Assembly (NCBI GenBank): GCA_020723935.1
Contig: DYHY01000012.1
Location: forward strand, 1 to 18,849
Length of the DNA: 18,849 nucleotides
Reading direction: 5' to 3'
Source of the DNA: Candidatus Micrarchaeum sp.
Lineage (GTDB): Archaea > SpSt-1190 > DYHY01
This document shows positions 1-15,134 of this stretch, piece after piece. The notes beneath the pieces were generated by a model. It made no database searches. It had not been told where the DNA came from and saw only the letters and a list, made by a program, of their open reading frames with translations. Both the position numbers and the translations under genes were made by a program. The number at the start of each line of letters is the position of its first letter. The first letter of the stretch is position 1.

Positions 1-192
1 ACTACTCTCACCCAGACGAGGACAGCCGAGGAGCTGCGGGTGAATCCGACGGTCGATTTCTACCTTACCCCGACGGAGGCAGGCGACAAGACAATCTATG
101 CGCAGGTCGACCCGTCCAACGCGATAGCGGAAAGCGACGAGACGAACAACGCGAGGTCGGTGGTGGTGTCGGTGAAAGAGACGCGGGGGTGA
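1..192 (+). CDS. C-terminal end of a CARDB-domain surface protein (partial)
   Basis: The frame is open from the first base and stops at a TGA at 190-192, giving 63 residues. They fit the last strands of a CARDB (cell-adhesion-related, Ig-like) domain: a segment AQVDPSNAIAESDETNN followed by a beta strand SVVVSV is the usual CARDB ending. Such domains are common in secreted archaeal surface proteins. The 5' part lies outside the window. The stop overlaps the GTG start of the next frame by 4 nt, right after a run of five G (185-189). One extra G there would fuse this domain directly to the metalloprotease downstream, so the stop may be artificial or a real break. Family assignment is good; whether this is a separate protein is uncertain. 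Confidence 0.6.
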   Translation, partial: TTLTQTRTAEELRVNPTVDFYLTPTEAGDKTIYAQVDPSNAIAESDETNNARSVVVSVKETRG

Positions 193-1154
193 ATTTGTAT
201 TTCGTGCCAGTTCCGTTCAGAAATGAGATTCCTGACTTCGATTCTTCTGTTGAGCACGGCGTATTTTTTCTTCAAGGAGCGTATCCGCTGTCCGAGACCG
301 GCCTGTCCTACGGGAAATCCCAAATATCCTATATTTCCTCTGCGCTTCCGCTTGTGGGGCCGGATCTAGACATACTTAATCTATGGCTGATGGGCGAGTT
401 GGCAACAGATGGGAAGTCGGACCGCACGGTAGGTATTGTTTCTTCGTCATATTTTTCAGGGCACTTGCGCCCTATTGATTTGATAGGTCTTTCTTTGCCT
501 TCAGTGCCTGGTTCCGTACTTGTTGATGAGCAGGCGTGGACAACTCTTGCTCACGAATTAGGGCACACTTATGGCCTTTACGTTGCCGGGCCAGAACAAC
601 GGATAATCTGTCCTCCTTGGAGCTGCCCTGTCAATGGCTTTTGGGTTGCCAGAAATAAGACTATGACCGCTTCTTCAAAGGGTCTTCCAATCTGTTTCAT
701 GGGCAGTGGCAGTGTTTACACGTTTGATGACAACTGGATAAGTGATGGTGTTTATTCCAACCTATTCCGGACTTTTAGGACTTCCTCAGACGATCCAGAC
801 GTTCTTCTTGTAAACGGAATAATATACTCTAACGGCACCGTGATATTCGGGCCGTTATACGAGATTCGAAACTCAACTACCAACGAGCAGGAACTCATTC
901 CAGGAAACTATTCTATTGAGCTCATTGGCCAAAACGGTAATCTGCTTCATTCCGCCAACTTCTCTGTTTCATTCGCGCCTTCCGACCCCAACCCTTCCAG
1001 TCCACATGCAGCTGTCTTTGGTTTCGCAATTGCATACCTTGAGAACACAACCTCGCCCGTTTCACGGATAACAACGGAACACGTGGCGCCGTCAATGTCA
1101 CTGAAAGCATTCTGCACACTGCAGTTGATTCCATACCCGACTCCGCGTTCCTGA
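189..1154 (+). CDS. Zinc metalloprotease-like protein (HELGHTYGL), probably surface-exposed; C-terminus frameshifted
   Basis: A 321-residue frame starting at GTG 189. Residues 122-130 read HELGHTYGL, the HExxHxxG zinc site of gluzincin/metzincin-like proteases: two His ligands and the catalytic Glu. A CFMGSG segment (residues 169-174) is a possible Met-turn, and a Cys pair lies around residues 141-146. There is no signal peptide in this frame; if the protein is really fused to the preceding CARDB domain, the signal lies off-window. From about residue 290 the translation stops looking like protein, while the -1 frame from about 1043 continues sensibly into the next entry, so the natural protein probably runs to 1372. 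Base composition is visibly lower in GC than the rest of the window, as expected for a fast-evolving or imported surface gene. The substrate cannot be told. Confidence 0.65.
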   Translation: MNLYFVPVPFRNEIPDFDSSVEHGVFFLQGAYPLSETGLSYGKSQISYISSALPLVGPDLDILNLWLMGELATDGKSDRTVGIVSSSYFSGHLRPIDLIGLSLPSVPGSVLVDEQAWTTLAHELGHTYGLYVAGPEQRIICPPWSCPVNGFWVARNKTMTASSKGLPICFMGSGSVYTFDDNWISDGVYSNLFRTFRTSSDDPDVLLVNGIIYSNGTVIFGPLYEIRNSTTNEQELIPGNYSIELIGQNGNLLHSANFSVSFAPSDPNPSSPHAAVFGFAIAYLENTTSPVSRITTEHVAPSMSLKAFCTLQLIPYPTPRS

Positions 1155-3760: not shown

Positions 3761-4132
3761 TCAGCCCGAGCAGACGGAAAGGAGGACCGTTCTCCCGCGG
3801 TAGCTTGCCGCGCGCCAGGAGCAGAAGCCAGAGTCCGTGCCTTCCTGCAGTGCTTCTCCGCCCGGGATTCCTATCGCCGTCACGTTTTCCGGCAGCTGCA
3901 GAAGCAGGTGGTCGGCGACGTGGCCGTCCGCCGACCTTCCGACGGCGCCCTCCTCCGGATTGAACAGGAGGCCGTCCCCGCCGATGACAGAGGTCCCGTA
4001 GCTCCTGAAGGCGGAAAAGTCGCCCGAAGATCCCTCGGCTACGCGCGTCGCGAGCTGCAGGAAGAACAGGAGGAAGATCCCGGCGGCGAGCGCGAAGAAG
4101 GCGACCTCGATCGAGATCTGGCTCCGCCCCAT
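3761..4132 (-). CDS. Pilin-like secreted protein C with class III signal peptide
   Basis: A 123-residue protein starting MGRSQISIEVAFFAL: positively charged residue, then Q5-x-S7-x-E9 and a 20-residue hydrophobic helix. This is the archaeal class III signal peptide recognised by prepilin peptidase (FlaK/EppA type), with cleavage before Q. The exported part is small and acidic and ends with a Cys pair (SGFC...SVCSG) that could form a disulfide. The frame is open upstream to 4378, but that extension overlaps the neighbour and is low-complexity R/G/S/P, so ATG 4132 was chosen; it lies 1 nt after the preceding gene's stop. It is the third gene of a three-gene operon and probably a minor pilin or pseudopilin. 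The exact role cannot be read from sequence. Confidence 0.75.
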   Translation of the reverse strand: MGRSQISIEVAFFALAAGIFLLFFLQLATRVAEGSSGDFSAFRSYGTSVIGGDGLLFNPEEGAVGRSADGHVADHLLLQLPENVTAIGIPGGEALQEGTDSGFCSWRAASYRGRTVLLSVCSG

Positions 4133-4133
4133 C

Positions 4134-4454
4134 TCATCCGGCCCTCCTGTACGGGGAGTAGTAGAGCCCGCCCCCGGCGGAGGCGTTTCCCCGGAGTCCC
4201 GCGCTTGAATTCCCCTTGAAAATCCTCCCGCCGGAAGCCGCCCCCGCAATCCTGACCTCGAAGGGTATCCCGCGGACGGCCGCGCTTTCCAGGACGAGGG
4301 CTGCCCCTTCCGCCCTCGCCTTCCCCTCGATGTCGGGGAAGGAGATCCTTCCGACGAACGCGATCGCGCAGCCAGCAATCAGCACGATCGACAGCAAGTA
4401 GGCCAGGAACTCAATCGACGCCTGAGATCTCGACACGCAGCTTCCCTCCTGCAA
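4134..4454 (-). CDS. Pilin-like secreted protein B with class III signal peptide
   Basis: A 106-residue product with SRSQASIEFLAYLLSIVLI near the N-terminus: the QxSxE class III signal followed by a hydrophobic helix, then a short Gly/Ala/Ser-rich exported part (GNSSAGLRGNASAGG). Two starts are possible, ATG 4454 and GTG 4436. The GTG places the SRSQ right after the initiator, as in protein C, and shortens the overlap with the upstream gene from 44 to 26 nt, so it may be the real one. Overlap on one side and a 1-nt gap on the other indicate one transcript. Probably a minor pilin-like subunit; no family name can be assigned. Confidence 0.7.
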   Translation of the reverse strand: MQEGSCVSRSQASIEFLAYLLSIVLIAGCAIAFVGRISFPDIEGKARAEGAALVLESAAVRGIPFEVRIAGAASGGRIFKGNSSAGLRGNASAGGGLYYSPYRRAG

Positions 4455-4890
4455 GCGCCCTTTCCGAGACGGACACTGTCCCGGAATATGGGAAATCCGC
4501 GCAGTTTTCCGTCCGCCCCCCGAACTCTCTGGCGCGCACGGGAACCGCCTTCTCCTCGGTCCCTCCCGAAATCACTCCACACGCAGAAATCCGCACCTCC
4601 GTCCCGTCCGAGACGGCGTTGAGGCGCACCGTCGGGAACAGCGTGAAGTTCTCGGAGGAGGAACCGCGGTCCCTCGACAGCGCCGCGGAATGGAACGAGA
4701 CGCTTTCCGATATTTCGGATACGGCCCTCGCCATCCCGGCGCGCTCCAGGCCGATGGCCCCCTCCCTGAAGAGCGCGACGGCCGCCGCAAGGTAGAGGGC
4801 GGAAACGGCGACGAAGACGAGGACTTCTAGGGAAAGCTGTGTTTTTCTAGACTGGCTGCGCCGTTCCTTGTCCTCTTTCTCTTCCTTCAT
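4411..4890 (-). CDS. Pilin-like secreted protein A with class III signal peptide
   Basis: A 159-residue product. A lysine- and arginine-rich leader of about 17 residues (MKEEKEDKERRSQSRKT) precedes QLSLEVLVFVAVSALYL, i.e. Q18-x-S20-x-E22 plus a membrane helix: a class III prepilin signal. The rest is a beta-rich extracellular domain with two Cys (ISACG and ENCADF). First gene of the three-gene pilin-like operon, with a TATA-like element about 23 nt upstream (4908-4917). The set of one larger and two small class III proteins resembles minor-pilin operons of archaeal type IV pili. No assembly ATPase, platform protein or prepilin peptidase is in this window, so the machinery must be encoded elsewhere. 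Confidence 0.75.
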   Translation of the reverse strand: MKEEKEDKERRSQSRKTQLSLEVLVFVAVSALYLAAAVALFREGAIGLERAGMARAVSEISESVSFHSAALSRDRGSSSENFTLFPTVRLNAVSDGTEVRISACGVISGGTEEKAVPVRAREFGGRTENCADFPYSGTVSVSERALAGGKLRVEISGVD

Positions 4891-8246: not shown

Positions 8247-8885
8247 TCAGATTCTGAACGCGGAGGGACAGATTTTGCTCAGGCTGCACTTTGCGCACGC
8301 GGGTCTTTTTGCGGTGCAAACGGCGCGCCCGTGGTGTATCAGGAGGTTCGAGACGGCGAGCCAGGCCCTCTTCGGGAAAAGGGCGATGAGATCTTGCTCC
8401 ACCTTCTCCGGCGTCTTCCCCGCGGAGAGGCCGAGGCGCCTGGCGAGCCTGAAGACGTGCGTGTCGACGACTACACCCTCGTTTATCCCGTAGGCGTTGG
8501 AGAGGACGACGTTCGCAGTCTTCCTCCCCACCCCCGGCAGACTGATCATCTCGCCGATCGTCCGCGGAAGCCTCCCGCCGAACCGCTCGAGCACCCCCTT
8601 GCAGCAGCCGATGACGCTTCCCGCCTTGTTCCTGTAGAACCCGGTGGGGCGGATGAGCCTCTCCAGGGTCTTCCTGTCGCAGCCCGCGAAATCCCCGAAC
8701 GTCTTGTACTCCTTGAAGAGGACGGAGGTTACCTCGTTAACCTTCCTGTCGGTGCACTGGGCGGAGAGGATGACGGAGACGACGAGCTCTGCCTGTGTGC
8801 GGTAGCGCAGGGTGATCCTCGCGCCCGGATAGCTTCTCTTCAGGATGGAAAGGACCTTCGGCGCGCGCTTCCCCTTCGCATCCAC
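8247..8885 (-). CDS. nth: Endonuclease III, DNA glycosylase/AP lyase
   Basis: A 212-residue HhH-GPD base-excision repair enzyme that removes oxidised pyrimidines and nicks the abasic site. The helix-hairpin-helix LPGVGRKTANVVL carries the catalytic Lys122, and VVDTHVFRLARRLG carries the catalytic Asp141. The N-terminal helix ends in SVILSAQCTD, the typical Nth pattern. The C-terminus has the [4Fe-4S] loop C190-x6-C197-x2-C200-x5-C206 exactly as in E. coli Nth. The start is GTG 8885; there is no in-frame ATG before it, and a TATA-like CTTAAAC (8909-8915) lies 27 nt upstream, fitting a leaderless GTG. It is transcribed on its own promoter. Its cluster would depend on the SUF system encoded further on. 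Confidence 0.95.
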   Translation of the reverse strand: MDAKGKRAPKVLSILKRSYPGARITLRYRTQAELVVSVILSAQCTDRKVNEVTSVLFKEYKTFGDFAGCDRKTLERLIRPTGFYRNKAGSVIGCCKGVLERFGGRLPRTIGEMISLPGVGRKTANVVLSNAYGINEGVVVDTHVFRLARRLGLSAGKTPEKVEQDLIALFPKRAWLAVSNLLIHHGRAVCTAKRPACAKCSLSKICPSAFRI

Positions 8886-9078: not shown

Positions 9079-10353
9079 CTACGGGAGCGCGTTCCTGAGG
9101 AACAATGCGTCCGCCTTGCCGCCCGCGGGGGTCCACAGCTCCATGTGCAGGTGCCTGCCGTAGAGATTGTGGTAGCGCGCCGGATCGTCCTGCGCGTCCT
9201 TCAGGAGGCCGTCGGAGCTGCTGTAGCTCCATCCCTGGTTGCCCATTTCGGCGAGTATCTCCCCGCCCTTCGTCACGTAGCCGGGGACGACCCAGTCCGG
9301 GATGGAGTCGTGCCCGATGTGGAAGAACGTGAGTATGACGTCGTTCCCCTGCGGATCCCTGCCCTGGAGGACGAGCCTGTTCACGGTAGAATTGTACTTG
9401 TTCACGGGGACGTTTCCGTAGAAGCCCTCGATGTCGTCCGAACAGCCGGCGGCCCCGTCCACGTACCAGTTGCAGTCGCCCCCGTCGTATATCCCGGGGA
9501 GGTTCAGCCCGGTCAGGGGGTCCAGGTACGTGCCAAGGACAGTCCAGTCCCCGGCGGGCGCGACGACGTAGTAGGGATTCTCGTCGTACTGGCTCGACGG
9601 GGCGACGTCGATGTGGTTTTCGGAGAAATACGTGACGACCGCCCTGCCGCCGGCAGGGGACGCGACCGCGGGGAAATATCCGTTGGCGGAAGCCGCCACC
9701 AGTTGCTGGGGCACCCCCTGCGCCGCGGGAGGCCAGGCGGGCTGTACGGACTGCGGCGCGACCATGACTGCCTGCGCGGGAACCCCGCCGGAAACCGCCG
9801 CGAGGACGCCGCCCGCTAGCGACCTGTCCGGCACGAGGAACTTGTCCGAAGGGAGGCCGTATACCAGGTGCGCCCGGCACGCCATCTGTGCGGCCAACGC
9901 CATCTGCTCGGACGTGGGCTCGGCGCCCGGGATCTCGGAATAGCCTGCGGCCTGGACGACGAACGTCAACGGGTTGGGGTTCCCGACCTCGTGCACGACC
10001 CCGTCGCGCGAGATGAGATAGTCGGGCATCTCGAAAAAGGCGACGCCGGCAAGAGAGAGATCCAGGTATTTTTCGGTTATCTTGTTCACCGTCCCGGCCC
10101 GATCGAAGCTTTCCAGGATCTCCTGCCTGCGCCACTCCTCAAGGGGCCTCTCCTCAATGACGGCGGACCCCGGCGCGTTGCCGGCAGCGTGCGGGCTCCT
10201 GTGAGAGGAATCTATCTGGAAGCTCCCTGGGTCGCAGGGCTGCTGGGGCGAGTACCCGTACGTCTGCCCCCCGCCGCCCCCGCCGCAGGCGGAGGCGAGT
10301 GACGCCACAAGCACGACGTCCACGAGAAATGCTACAAGCCTGGCACCCCCCAT
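9079..10353 (-). CDS. Secreted lipoprotein-like protein with an M23 (LytM-like) metallopeptidase domain
   Basis: A 424-residue protein. The N-terminus has a hydrophobic segment (LVAFLVDVVLVASLASAC) ending in a lipobox-like ASAC, with Cys23 followed by six Gly, typical of a membrane-anchored lipoprotein. Residues 50-235 are a region of no known type with a Pro/Gln-rich stretch near 195-220. The C-terminal part (about 240-424) resembles peptidase family M23: NHID (H247, D249), VILTFFHIGHD (H345), PGYVTKGGEILAEMGNQGWS, and the closing GRHLHMELW (H401, H403). That order matches HxGxD, YxHL and HLHFEL of M23 enzymes, with an insert of about 60 residues (290-335) and a missing Gly in the first motif, so activity is uncertain. 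It has its own promoter. Confidence 0.75.
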   Translation of the reverse strand: MGGARLVAFLVDVVLVASLASACGGGGGGQTYGYSPQQPCDPGSFQIDSSHRSPHAAGNAPGSAVIEERPLEEWRRQEILESFDRAGTVNKITEKYLDLSLAGVAFFEMPDYLISRDGVVHEVGNPNPLTFVVQAAGYSEIPGAEPTSEQMALAAQMACRAHLVYGLPSDKFLVPDRSLAGGVLAAVSGGVPAQAVMVAPQSVQPAWPPAAQGVPQQLVAASANGYFPAVASPAGGRAVVTYFSENHIDVAPSSQYDENPYYVVAPAGDWTVLGTYLDPLTGLNLPGIYDGGDCNWYVDGAAGCSDDIEGFYGNVPVNKYNSTVNRLVLQGRDPQGNDVILTFFHIGHDSIPDWVVPGYVTKGGEILAEMGNQGWSYSSSDGLLKDAQDDPARYHNLYGRHLHMELWTPAGGKADALFLRNALP

Positions 10354-10388
10354 GATTCTTCCCCTCTAGAGAAGGCTGGCCGCCCTCC

Positions 10389-10400
10389 CTATTTAACAGG
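10389..10400 (-). promoter_or_regulatory. TATA box of the M23 gene
   Basis: CCTGTTAAATAG on the minus strand, about 40 nt before ATG 10353, so this gene should have a leader of about 15 nt. A purine run AGAGGGG lies 8-14 nt before the ATG as a possible Shine-Dalgarno site, unlike the leaderless neighbours. Confidence 0.5.
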
Positions 10401-12405: not shown

Positions 12406-14163
12406 TCAGGCCCGCCCCCCCTTCAGGGAAGTGAACCCGCCCCTGATGTATTCGGCCGAAAGTGGCCTGCCGTCGTACCTCAGTATCTTCTCCTCTATTT
12501 TGATCCCGGTCTGCTGCCTTATCAGGCGCCCGAGCTGCCCGGTCGCGTTCCCCTCAACGAGCACCAGGCGCTTGGCCTCGCGAAGAAGCCCTTCGGCAGC
12601 TTCGGGGAACGGCCACATGTAGACGAACTGCATAACGTTCGCCCTCACGCCCTGCTTTTCCAGGAGTTCGAGAGCCTCGATCGCCGGGCCCTTGGTGGAG
12701 CCCCACACCACGAGCGTGACATCCGCCCCCGCCGGGCCGTGGAGCGCCGGCGCGGGGACCTCCTTCTGGACGGAGGCGAACTTGCGCAGGCGCCTCTCGA
12801 CCTGGACCTTCCTCACCTGCGGGTCCTCGTCGATGCTCCCGAGCTCGTCCCTCTCGTCGCTCGGCTCCCTGTGGATGCCATACGCCGTCCCGGGTATCAC
12901 GCGCGGCGAGACGCCGTTCTCCGTGGAGAAATACCTCTTGAACGGCTGGTGAGCTTTGAGCCAGTCCTCGCCCACTATCCAGCCGCGGTTCACCGTCACC
13001 CTCGACTGGTCGAACTTCTCGTGGGAGAAGAAGCTTTCCGCGAGGTACTTGTCGCTCATGACGATCACTGGGAGCTGGAACCTCTCAGCCCAGTTGAACG
13101 CCTCCGCCGTCAGGTAGAAGCACTCCTCGGCGTCCCCCGGGACGACCACGAGGCGGGGGAACTCCCCCTGATGCGCGTTTATCACGAAATGCAGGTCCGC
13201 CTGCTCGGTCCTCGTCGGGAGGCCCGTCGCGGGCCCCGGCCTCTGGACCTCGATCATGACGACCGGCGTCTCGGTCATCGCCGCGAGGCCCAGGCCCTCC
13301 GTCTGGAGGGAGAAGCCCCCGCCGGAGGTGGAGATCATCGCGCGCACGCCCGCGTTCGCGGCCCCTATCGCCATGTTTATCCCCGCTATCTCGTCCTCGA
13401 CGTGCTTCATGACGAGGCTGCATTCGCGCTCGTTAGCCGCGAAATAGTGCATTATGGCGGAGGCGGGCGTCATCGGGTATGCGGCGAGGAACTTGCATCC
13501 GGCGCGTATCGCGCCCATCGCCATCGCCTCGTTCCCGGTGATGAGCATCTTCGGCGGCTCGCCCGCGCGGCCGGAGAGCTTCCAGCCGAAGGCCTTCGTG
13601 TCGTAGTTCTTCGCGGCGAAGTCGTACCCCAGCTTCGCTGCCCTGATGTTGGTGTCTGCCAGGGCCTCGCCCTTCTTCCCGAGGCCCTCCTTGATGAGCT
13701 GGTTCATGATCCCGACGTCCAGGCCGCAGAACGCCGCCGCGGCGCCCAGGCCCACAGTGTTCCTCATGATCCTCTCGCCGCCGGCCTCCTTGGCGAGGGC
13801 GAGGAGCGGGATGTGGCAGTAGGAGACGTCGCCCCTCTCCTTCTTCGTGTCCTTGACGTCGTCCGCGTCGTAGAGTATCACCCCGCCGGGAAGGACCTCC
13901 TTCTCGTGGTCGTCCATCGTCTTCCTGTTGAGGGCGAGGACCATCGAGACCGTCTCGGTGTGGCCCGGGACGGGCTTCGCGCGCACGCGTATCTGGACGG
14001 TGTTGTGGCCGCCGCGGATGAGGGAGGGGTATTCGTTGTTCACGAAGACGTGCAGGCCCATTCTCGTGCAGGCCTTGGAGAAGATCATCCCCGACTGGGC
14101 GATGCCGTATCCGGCCTCGCCGCCCATCTTGAAGCTGAAATCCAAGTCCGCCTGGCCTGCCAT
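12406..14163 (-). CDS. korA: 2-oxoacid:ferredoxin oxidoreductase, fused gamma-alpha subunit
   Basis: A 585-residue fusion. Residues 1 to about 195 are the gamma domain, beginning KMGGEAGYGIAQSG and with NNEYPSLIRGGHNT. From about 205 comes the alpha domain, with GNEAMAMGAIRAGCKFLAAYPMTPAS: YPMTPAS (229-235) is the YPITPSS motif that contacts substrate and TPP. Next come HVEDEIAGINMAIGAANAG with a conserved Glu, and GPATGLPTRTEQADL (310-324), all standard for the family. The C-terminus carries the transketolase-like segment ADVTLVVWGSTKGPAIEAL. The alpha-gamma fusion is typical of archaeal two-subunit 2-oxoacid:ferredoxin oxidoreductases. First gene of the operon with the beta subunit and the radical SAM gene. 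A TATA box 28 nt upstream supports leaderless ATG 14163. Confidence 0.93.
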   Translation of the reverse strand: MAGQADLDFSFKMGGEAGYGIAQSGMIFSKACTRMGLHVFVNNEYPSLIRGGHNTVQIRVRAKPVPGHTETVSMVLALNRKTMDDHEKEVLPGGVILYDADDVKDTKKERGDVSYCHIPLLALAKEAGGERIMRNTVGLGAAAAFCGLDVGIMNQLIKEGLGKKGEALADTNIRAAKLGYDFAAKNYDTKAFGWKLSGRAGEPPKMLITGNEAMAMGAIRAGCKFLAAYPMTPASAIMHYFAANERECSLVMKHVEDEIAGINMAIGAANAGVRAMISTSGGGFSLQTEGLGLAAMTETPVVMIEVQRPGPATGLPTRTEQADLHFVINAHQGEFPRLVVVPGDAEECFYLTAEAFNWAERFQLPVIVMSDKYLAESFFSHEKFDQSRVTVNRGWIVGEDWLKAHQPFKRYFSTENGVSPRVIPGTAYGIHREPSDERDELGSIDEDPQVRKVQVERRLRKFASVQKEVPAPALHGPAGADVTLVVWGSTKGPAIEALELLEKQGVRANVMQFVYMWPFPEAAEGLLREAKRLVLVEGNATGQLGRLIRQQTGIKIEEKILRYDGRPLSAEYIRGGFTSLKGGRA

Positions 14164-14186
14164 ATGGGTTTTTGGGGCTCCGAGGA

Positions 14187-14199
14187 AAATATTTAACCG
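14187..14199 (-). promoter_or_regulatory. TATA box of the oxidoreductase operon
   Basis: GGTTAAATATTTT on the minus strand, centred about 28 nt before ATG 14163. It is the strongest TATA in the window and separates this operon from the SUF operon ending at 14214. Confidence 0.7.
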
Positions 14200-14213
14200 T
14201 TCCGTTTCCCGCG

Positions 14214-14714
14214 CTATTTAAGCGCCTTAATAACCTGCTTCGCGTGCCCGGTCGGGTTCACCTGCTGGAACACCTTCCTGATCTTCCCCGCCGGGTCGAT
14301 GACGAACGTCGTCCTGACTATCCCCCAGCCGAAGATGCCCTTGTTCTGCCACACGCCGTAGGCCTTCGAGACGCTCCTGTCCGTGTCGCAGAGGAGCGGG
14401 AAGTTGAGCGAATACTTGTCGGAGAACTTTTTGTGGGAGGTGTAGTTGTCGTTGCTGATGCCCAGGACCACCGCCTTCTTCTTCGTTATGGCGGGGATGG
14501 TGTCCCGGAAGCCGCAGGCTTCCATCGTGCAGCCCGGCGTGTCGTCCTTGGGGTAGAAATAGATGACAACTGTCCTGCTCTTGAACTGCGAGAGCGTGTA
14601 CTTGTTCCCGTCGCTCCCCCACATCGAGAAATCCGGCGCCGTTTCGCCCCTTGAGAGCGGTGGCTTATACGTCGGCGAAGCTCTCGGCCGTGCGTAGGGA
14701 CCCCTGCTTGCCAT
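14214..14714 (-). CDS. bcp: Peroxiredoxin of the BCP/PrxQ type
   Basis: A 166-residue thiol peroxidase that reduces hydrogen peroxide and organic hydroperoxides. The active-site segment is YFYPKDDTPGCTMEACGFRD: peroxidatic Cys62 and, five residues later, the resolving Cys67, the atypical 2-Cys arrangement of E. coli BCP. APDF near residue 26 marks the start of the thioredoxin fold, and FVIDPAGKIRKVF the late strands. The first 20 residues (basic, Pro-rich) precede the usual family start. ATG 14714 comes 3 nt after the sufU stop with AGGAG about 10 nt upstream, so it is co-transcribed with the SUF genes. Placement suggests protection of Fe-S assembly from peroxide, which is inference. Confidence 0.92.
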   Translation of the reverse strand: MASRGPYARPRASPTYKPPLSRGETAPDFSMWGSDGNKYTLSQFKSRTVVIYFYPKDDTPGCTMEACGFRDTIPAITKKKAVVLGISNDNYTSHKKFSDKYSLNFPLLCDTDRSVSKAYGVWQNKGIFGWGIVRTTFVIDPAGKIRKVFQQVNPTGHAKQVIKALK

Positions 14715-14717
14715 CTT

Positions 14718-15134
14718 CTAACTCCTACGCTCCTTCGGCTTGCCCGGCCCCTTTATCATTTTTTCGCCCCCTTCCTGCCCGAGCGCCTCTTTCAGCGTCC
14801 TCAGCGGCAACAGGGCGCAGTTGAGCCTCGCGTGGCTTATGCCTATCCCCAGGAGCGCGAGGGCGTCCTTCTTGGAGAGATTCCTGGCCTCGGATAGACG
14901 CATCCCTTCGACTTTCTCCATAAGCATTGAAGAGGCCGCCGTGCTTATCGCGCACCCGCTCCCCATAAAGCGCGCCTGGGAGATCCTCCCCTTCGAGACC
15001 CTGACCTGGATGCTCACGCTGTCGCCGCAGGAGGGGTTGTGGCCGCTCGCCTGCGCGGTCGGCTCCGCAATCGTCCCCTTCTTCCTCGGGTGCTGGTAAT
15101 AGTCGACGATTGCTTCCGTGTAGATGTTCCCCAT
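14718..15134 (-). CDS. sufU: Fe-S cluster assembly scaffold / sulfur carrier, SufU-NifU (IscU-like)
   Basis: A 138-residue IscU-like protein. The three conserved Cys are all present: C36 in NPSCGD with D38, C61 in GSGCAIS, and C106 in RLNCALLPL. The spacing and the YTEAIVDYYQHPRKKG opening match SufU/NifU-N. In SUF systems it accepts sulfur from the cysteine desulfurase and passes it to the SufBCD scaffold, or acts as a zinc-dependent partner of SufS. The basic tail after residue 125 (KGPGKPKERRS) is an extra. It starts 4 nt after the sufS stop and is followed 3 nt later by the peroxiredoxin. I cannot decide from sequence between a scaffold and a transfer role. Confidence 0.92.
   Translation of the reverse strand: MGNIYTEAIVDYYQHPRKKGTIAEPTAQASGHNPSCGDSVSIQVRVSKGRISQARFMGSGCAISTAASSMLMEKVEGMRLSEARNLSKKDALALLGIGISHARLNCALLPLRTLKEALGQEGGEKMIKGPGKPKERRS

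Follow-up and report, generated by a model that had tools for sequence, protein, structure and literature searches.

An archaeal gene in the window, the 18,849 nt stretch of contig DYHY01000012.1 (Candidatus Micrarchaeum sp.) analysed here, encodes a predicted lipoprotein whose C-terminal motifs recall the M23 endopeptidases that cut bacterial peptidoglycan. This raises the question of whether the likeness reflects true kinship, whether the domain could still act as an enzyme, and what an archaeon without murein would use it for.

Gene and Genomic Neighbourhood

The gene occupies positions 9079–10353 on the minus strand and encodes 424 amino acids plus a stop codon, with a frame that is uninterrupted over all 424 codons in the ORF translation of the window. 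Its GC3 of 0.86 resembles that of the likely genes alongside (0.83–0.91). On one side of this solitary gene lies an endonuclease III-like gene (8247–8885), on the other a radical-SAM gene (10426 on). On the same strand, a putative TATA box, TTAAATA (10390–10396), lies 37 nt 5′ of the start codon and resembles the TATA-box consensus; GAGGGG (10361–10366), 5′ of the ATG, may serve as a Shine-Dalgarno sequence. The window also carries an archaeal-type fructose-1,6-bisphosphatase (PF01950), and elsewhere in the 1.14 Mb assembly, on a different contig, an archaeal-type S13-S4-S11-Rpo3 cluster was recognised by eye. With its host-like GC3 and archaeal neighbours, the lipoprotein gene belongs to the archaeal genome.

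None of the neighbouring genes in the window hinted at bacterial targets. Gene order was uninformative; nth and AmrS-like genes lie on separate contigs in every relative carrying both.

Two other parts of the window stood out. An ORF at 189–1154 (plus strand) has a GC3 of 0.48 versus ~0.87 in its neighbours and is possibly a recent arrival; it contains an HELGH metalloprotease-like motif and has no Pfam match. At 3761–4890 (minus strand), three ORFs in series bear, by eye, pilin-like (class III) signal peptides, e.g., SRSQASIEFLAYLL.

Predicted Signal Peptide and N-Terminal Region

Residues 1–22 (10288–10353, minus strand) form a predicted signal peptide with the lipobox LASA/C, cleavage being expected just before Cys23 (10285–10287, minus strand), the predicted lipid-anchored residue. 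Residues 1–23 fit a PROSITE-type lipobox pattern, which agrees with the lipobox-like Cys23 proposed in the earlier note and makes the product a predicted lipoprotein. Lipobox proteins occur in archaea, and the biogenesis factors AliA and AliB are known from Haloferax (PMC12186497).

The N-terminal region (residues 61–222; 9688–10173, minus strand) was not assigned to any family in library searches. A PDB sequence search with the protein yielded chance-level matches only; among them, a lectin match to residues 61–118 (E 0.025) was dropped as weak. Comparison with another predicted lipoprotein of the same genome revealed no real similarity.

Sequence Homology to M23 Domains

Pfam, NCBIfam and PHROGs library searches of the protein gave no match, nor did they recognise a peptidoglycan-binding domain. 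Homology missed by Pfam hmmscan was nevertheless detectable with hhalign: the single sequence scored 44.5 (E 4.6e-6) against five aligned M23 domains from archaea and ~47 against larger M23 sets, with E values over all sets ranging from about 1e-7 to 5e-6. In the shuffle control (n = 300 per profile), the mean score was 12.9 (SD 2.5, maximum 22.5) versus 47.1 for the real sequence, and the best of 85 other ORFs in the window reached 21.3 versus 47.3 for the protein. The aligned core comprises residues 324–412. An hmmsearch with an M23 profile built without this protein gave just 6.6 bits (E 0.1). About 60 positions could be reliably aligned with M23 sequences, at a mean identity of ~25%.

Taken from these alignments, M23 homology of the C-terminal domain (residues 236–424; 9082–9648, minus strand) is near certain, and the divergent M23/LytM-like assignment made in the earlier note, with which the M23-guided AF2 model and its structure matches agree, holds up against controls that never exceeded 22.5. 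Neither tblastn nor pattern scans found a sequence relative in genome contigs, viral contigs or phages, in 10 genomes of the same phylum, or in an archaeal phylum represented by 156 genomes. In one pattern-scan alignment, a few letters were altered by hand to widen the pattern; this alignment was kept out of the structure work.

Putative Active-Site Residues and Inserts

The motifs appear in the order previously described, with NHID starting at residue 246, FFHIGH at 343, GYVTKGGEILAEMGNQG at 358 and GRHLHMEL at 399. His247, Asp249 and His403 were correctly placed by the earlier note, and His345 and His401 are present as well; residue 251, which had been offered as an Asp, is Ala. In the alignments, Asp249 falls on the motif Asp, His345 (9319–9321, minus strand) on the YxH His that is catalytic in M23, and HLH (9145–9153, minus strand) on HxH, with His401 in the general base position and His403 in the zinc ligand position. 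The three His residues were aligned in all rows. Four of the five site residues (D249, H345, H401 and H403) are kept at ~25% mean identity. The phage rows have 26 conserved columns, of which the protein retains 15, the gapped H247 included. Several normally invariant residues are lost, namely two Gly (now W270 and N325) and one His (now R332).

The fifth position departs from the usual form. Motif 1 reads ENHID (E245–D249; 9607–9621, minus strand) instead of HxGxD, so that an ungapped alignment places Glu245 at the usual His position (D-4) and His247 at D-2, in accordance with the altered first motif reported earlier. The usual H(x)nD zinc motif is absent; His247 and the Asp make up HxD, a spacing below the range from H(x)3D to H(x)12D reported for M23 (PMC9662197). 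In many MAFFT runs, a gap was opened so that H247 paired with the first-ligand His. Since β-strand residues two apart share a side, H247 could reach the metal and replace the usual His. Asp257 was also considered as the ligand Asp, in an H(x)9D arrangement, and was judged less likely because the next strand begins just six residues later. An M23 domain above the Pfam cut-off in another archaeal genome (locus L006, genome G036) seemingly has its first-motif His replaced (YKQLDEW); loss of the standard ligand is therefore not unique to the window protein.

Two inserts flank the site. The insert described earlier is present, although its length is about 46 residues (277–322; 9388–9525, minus strand) rather than 60; it contains Cys294 and Cys304 and was modelled with low pLDDT. 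A second insert of 24 residues (375–398; 9160–9231, minus strand), absent from the earlier note, is predicted by AF2 to form helices just before HxH.

Structure Models

AF2 modelling of residues 216–424 with 31 phage-contig M23 rows gave a core pLDDT of 80–91 and a pTM of 0.64. The row set was picked among many trial alignments as one with D249, the 327 strand, H345 and H403 in register. The high-probability Foldseek matches of this model were all M23 chains (best E 0.003). VIA-align returned a Z of 12.4 for ShyA (110 residues, rmsd 2.5), 12.3 for both LytM and SpoIIQ, and about 12 for lysostaphin; EnvC was also among the structural matches. The predicted LytM fold, at a Z of about 12, involves some circularity, since the guiding rows were themselves M23 and had been selected for register. 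AF2 from the single full-length sequence was of low confidence (pLDDT 33) and placed strands at similar residues and in a matching order, which may lend the guided model weak independent support.

Genome Context

A search of the genome, which is 91% complete, found no Mur ligase, consistent with the premise that the archaeon lacks murein. The Pfam M23 model detected one other M23 domain in this genome (G000), on contig C17 (57457–57798, Pfam E 1.2e-17, standard HxGxD). It forms the end of a 2297-aa ORF (51046–57936, locus L033) that also has a GH39-like domain. A few kb upstream lies an ORF with a lytic transglycosylase (SLT) domain (47231–47521, locus L040), preceded by ORFs that resemble, by eye, a type IV pilus/secretion ATPase and membrane protein. 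Many small single-helix proteins, likewise recognised by eye, are located between the pilus-like ORFs and the SLT/M23 ORFs.

Locus L040 additionally contains a further predicted lipoprotein (14083–15075, minus strand) with the lipobox LSGC, a Thr/Pro-rich linker and a lower GC3 of 0.71; its gene lies between the one with the SLT domain and the one for the giant M23 protein.

In a relative of the same class (G003), four ORFs of 1901–2252 aa carry M23, two of them together with NlpC/P60. These data suggest that murein-cutting enzymes without a sign of murein synthesis are a recurring theme here; any link of the window gene to those loci is conjectural. The four G003 ORFs are found on contigs C20, C53, C41 and C21 (loci L034, L036, L037 and L038), and one begins, by eye, in an SLT-like manner. 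The G003 genome, at 3.8 Mb, is much bigger than those of its class relatives and is listed as 6% contaminated.

Proposed Function and Alternative Explanations

We tentatively propose that the protein is a tethered zinc endopeptidase directed against the peptidoglycan of bacteria, giving the proposal as a whole somewhat less than an even chance. The protein would be exported by the Sec route and cleaved at the lipobox, and the lipid on Cys23 would hold it on the outside of the membrane. A low-complexity linker and the N-terminal region of no recognised family would hold out the C-terminal M23/LytM-fold domain, where Asp249 and His403 might bind one metal together with a third ligand, His247 or Glu245, and where His345 and His401 would form the catalytic pair. 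The weakest step is the last, in which the domain would cut peptide cross-links of peptidoglycan in touched bacterial cells, for attack, feeding or attachment. Catalysis by the domain is somewhat favoured. The bacterial wall as target is a best guess by analogy, from precedent and genome content, because archaeal M23 precedent exists (PMC12352652) and the genome itself has a canonical M23, an SLT domain and no Mur ligase that was found.

The counterweight to a catalytic reading is a first zinc ligand that, in the alignments, is not the standard His. Moreover, the domain came to attention in part through its retained site, which counts against the tethered endopeptidase, as do the lack of a recognised peptidoglycan-binding domain, the low hmmsearch score and the absence of any neighbouring gene that hints at bacterial targets. 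The main rival is a loss of catalysis, with the LytM-type domain acting as a binding or scaffold module that holds a partner protein or wall fragment at the surface, as in EnvC, NlpD, Csd2 and SpoIIQ. The missing standard ligand, a groove flanked by two inserts, the existence of degenerate M23 proteins with protein-binding roles (PMC9662197) and the presence of SpoIIQ and EnvC among the structural matches all speak for such a module; we still regard it as rather unlikely, as D249, H345, H401 and H403 are all retained in a very divergent sequence and a spare His sits two residues from the ligand Asp.

Catalysis could also be directed elsewhere, at envelope or pilus proteins of the archaeon itself or of an archaeal partner. 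The lack of a recognised peptidoglycan-binding domain would suit this, as would the locus like a type IV pilus/secretion system and the pilin-like ORFs in the window, but the substrates of those active M23 enzymes that have been characterised are mostly peptidoglycan or Gly-rich peptides (PMC9662197) and the genome has other peptidoglycan-enzyme domains, which leaves a different substrate clearly unlikely. Chance resemblance of short motifs, with no M23 kinship, would account for the blank Pfam, NCBIfam and PHROGs searches and for tblastn finding no relative in any set searched. It is very improbable given an hhalign score of 47 versus shuffle and ORF controls of at most 22.5, and given the high core pLDDT and Z of about 12, even though M23 rows guided the AF2 model.

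Returning to the tethered endopeptidase, it might belong to a dedicated wall-breaching set, composed of the tethered M23 with its rewired zinc site, a giant M23 and a pilus-like machine that has a transglycosylase of its own, in an archaeon living in contact with bacteria; we consider this extension quite improbable. Few archaeal weapons or tools against bacterial walls are known; if active, the enzyme would extend them by a membrane-tethered form whose metal site is altered, and it would show that divergent members escape surveys based on family models. In combination with the genome's other wall-enzyme domains, it would make an archaeon–bacterium contact lifestyle testable in a little-known phylum.

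Comparison with Known Systems

Archaeal M23 peptidoglycan hydrolases were published in 2025, one of which kills a halophilic bacterium (PMC12352652). That survey required a Pfam match and a wall-binding domain, and would therefore miss the window protein, which has no Pfam domain and so lacks the modular pairing of a catalytic with a recognised wall-binding domain. Like Woldo and the other archaeal hydrolases (PMC12352652), it combines an M23 domain with predicted export from an archaeal cell, and its genome is not one from which murein synthesis would be expected. Woldo has a Pfam M23 match, tandem PG-binding-1 domains and a Tat signal, whereas the window protein has a lipobox and neither a Pfam match nor a known binding domain.

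With the M23B enzymes LytM, lysostaphin, ShyA and zoocin A, the domain shares, as modelled, the order of the core strands, and with bacterial and phage M23B in general the motif 1 Asp, the YxH His, HxH followed by an acidic E, and the GNxG turn. It differs from M23B in having E at the first His position and H two before the Asp, in lying below Pfam detection, and, relative to the M23B endopeptidases, in its inserts of 46 and 24 residues and ~25% identity. The canonical M23 domain on contig C17 likewise has a Cys-rich insert, placed between the corresponding strands; unlike the window protein, it has standard HxGxD, ends a 2297-aa ORF and is detected by Pfam.

Protein-binding and scaffold roles are known for a class of degenerate M23 proteins (PMC9662197). 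The window protein, with its predicted M23 fold, resembles EnvC, NlpD, Csd2 and SpoIIQ in that the standard site is incomplete, and differs from them in retaining four of five site residues. As both antibacterial archaeal M23 and degenerate M23 proteins are already known, the window protein is best described as a divergent variant, new in its changed first motif, its pair of inserts and its probable lipid tether.
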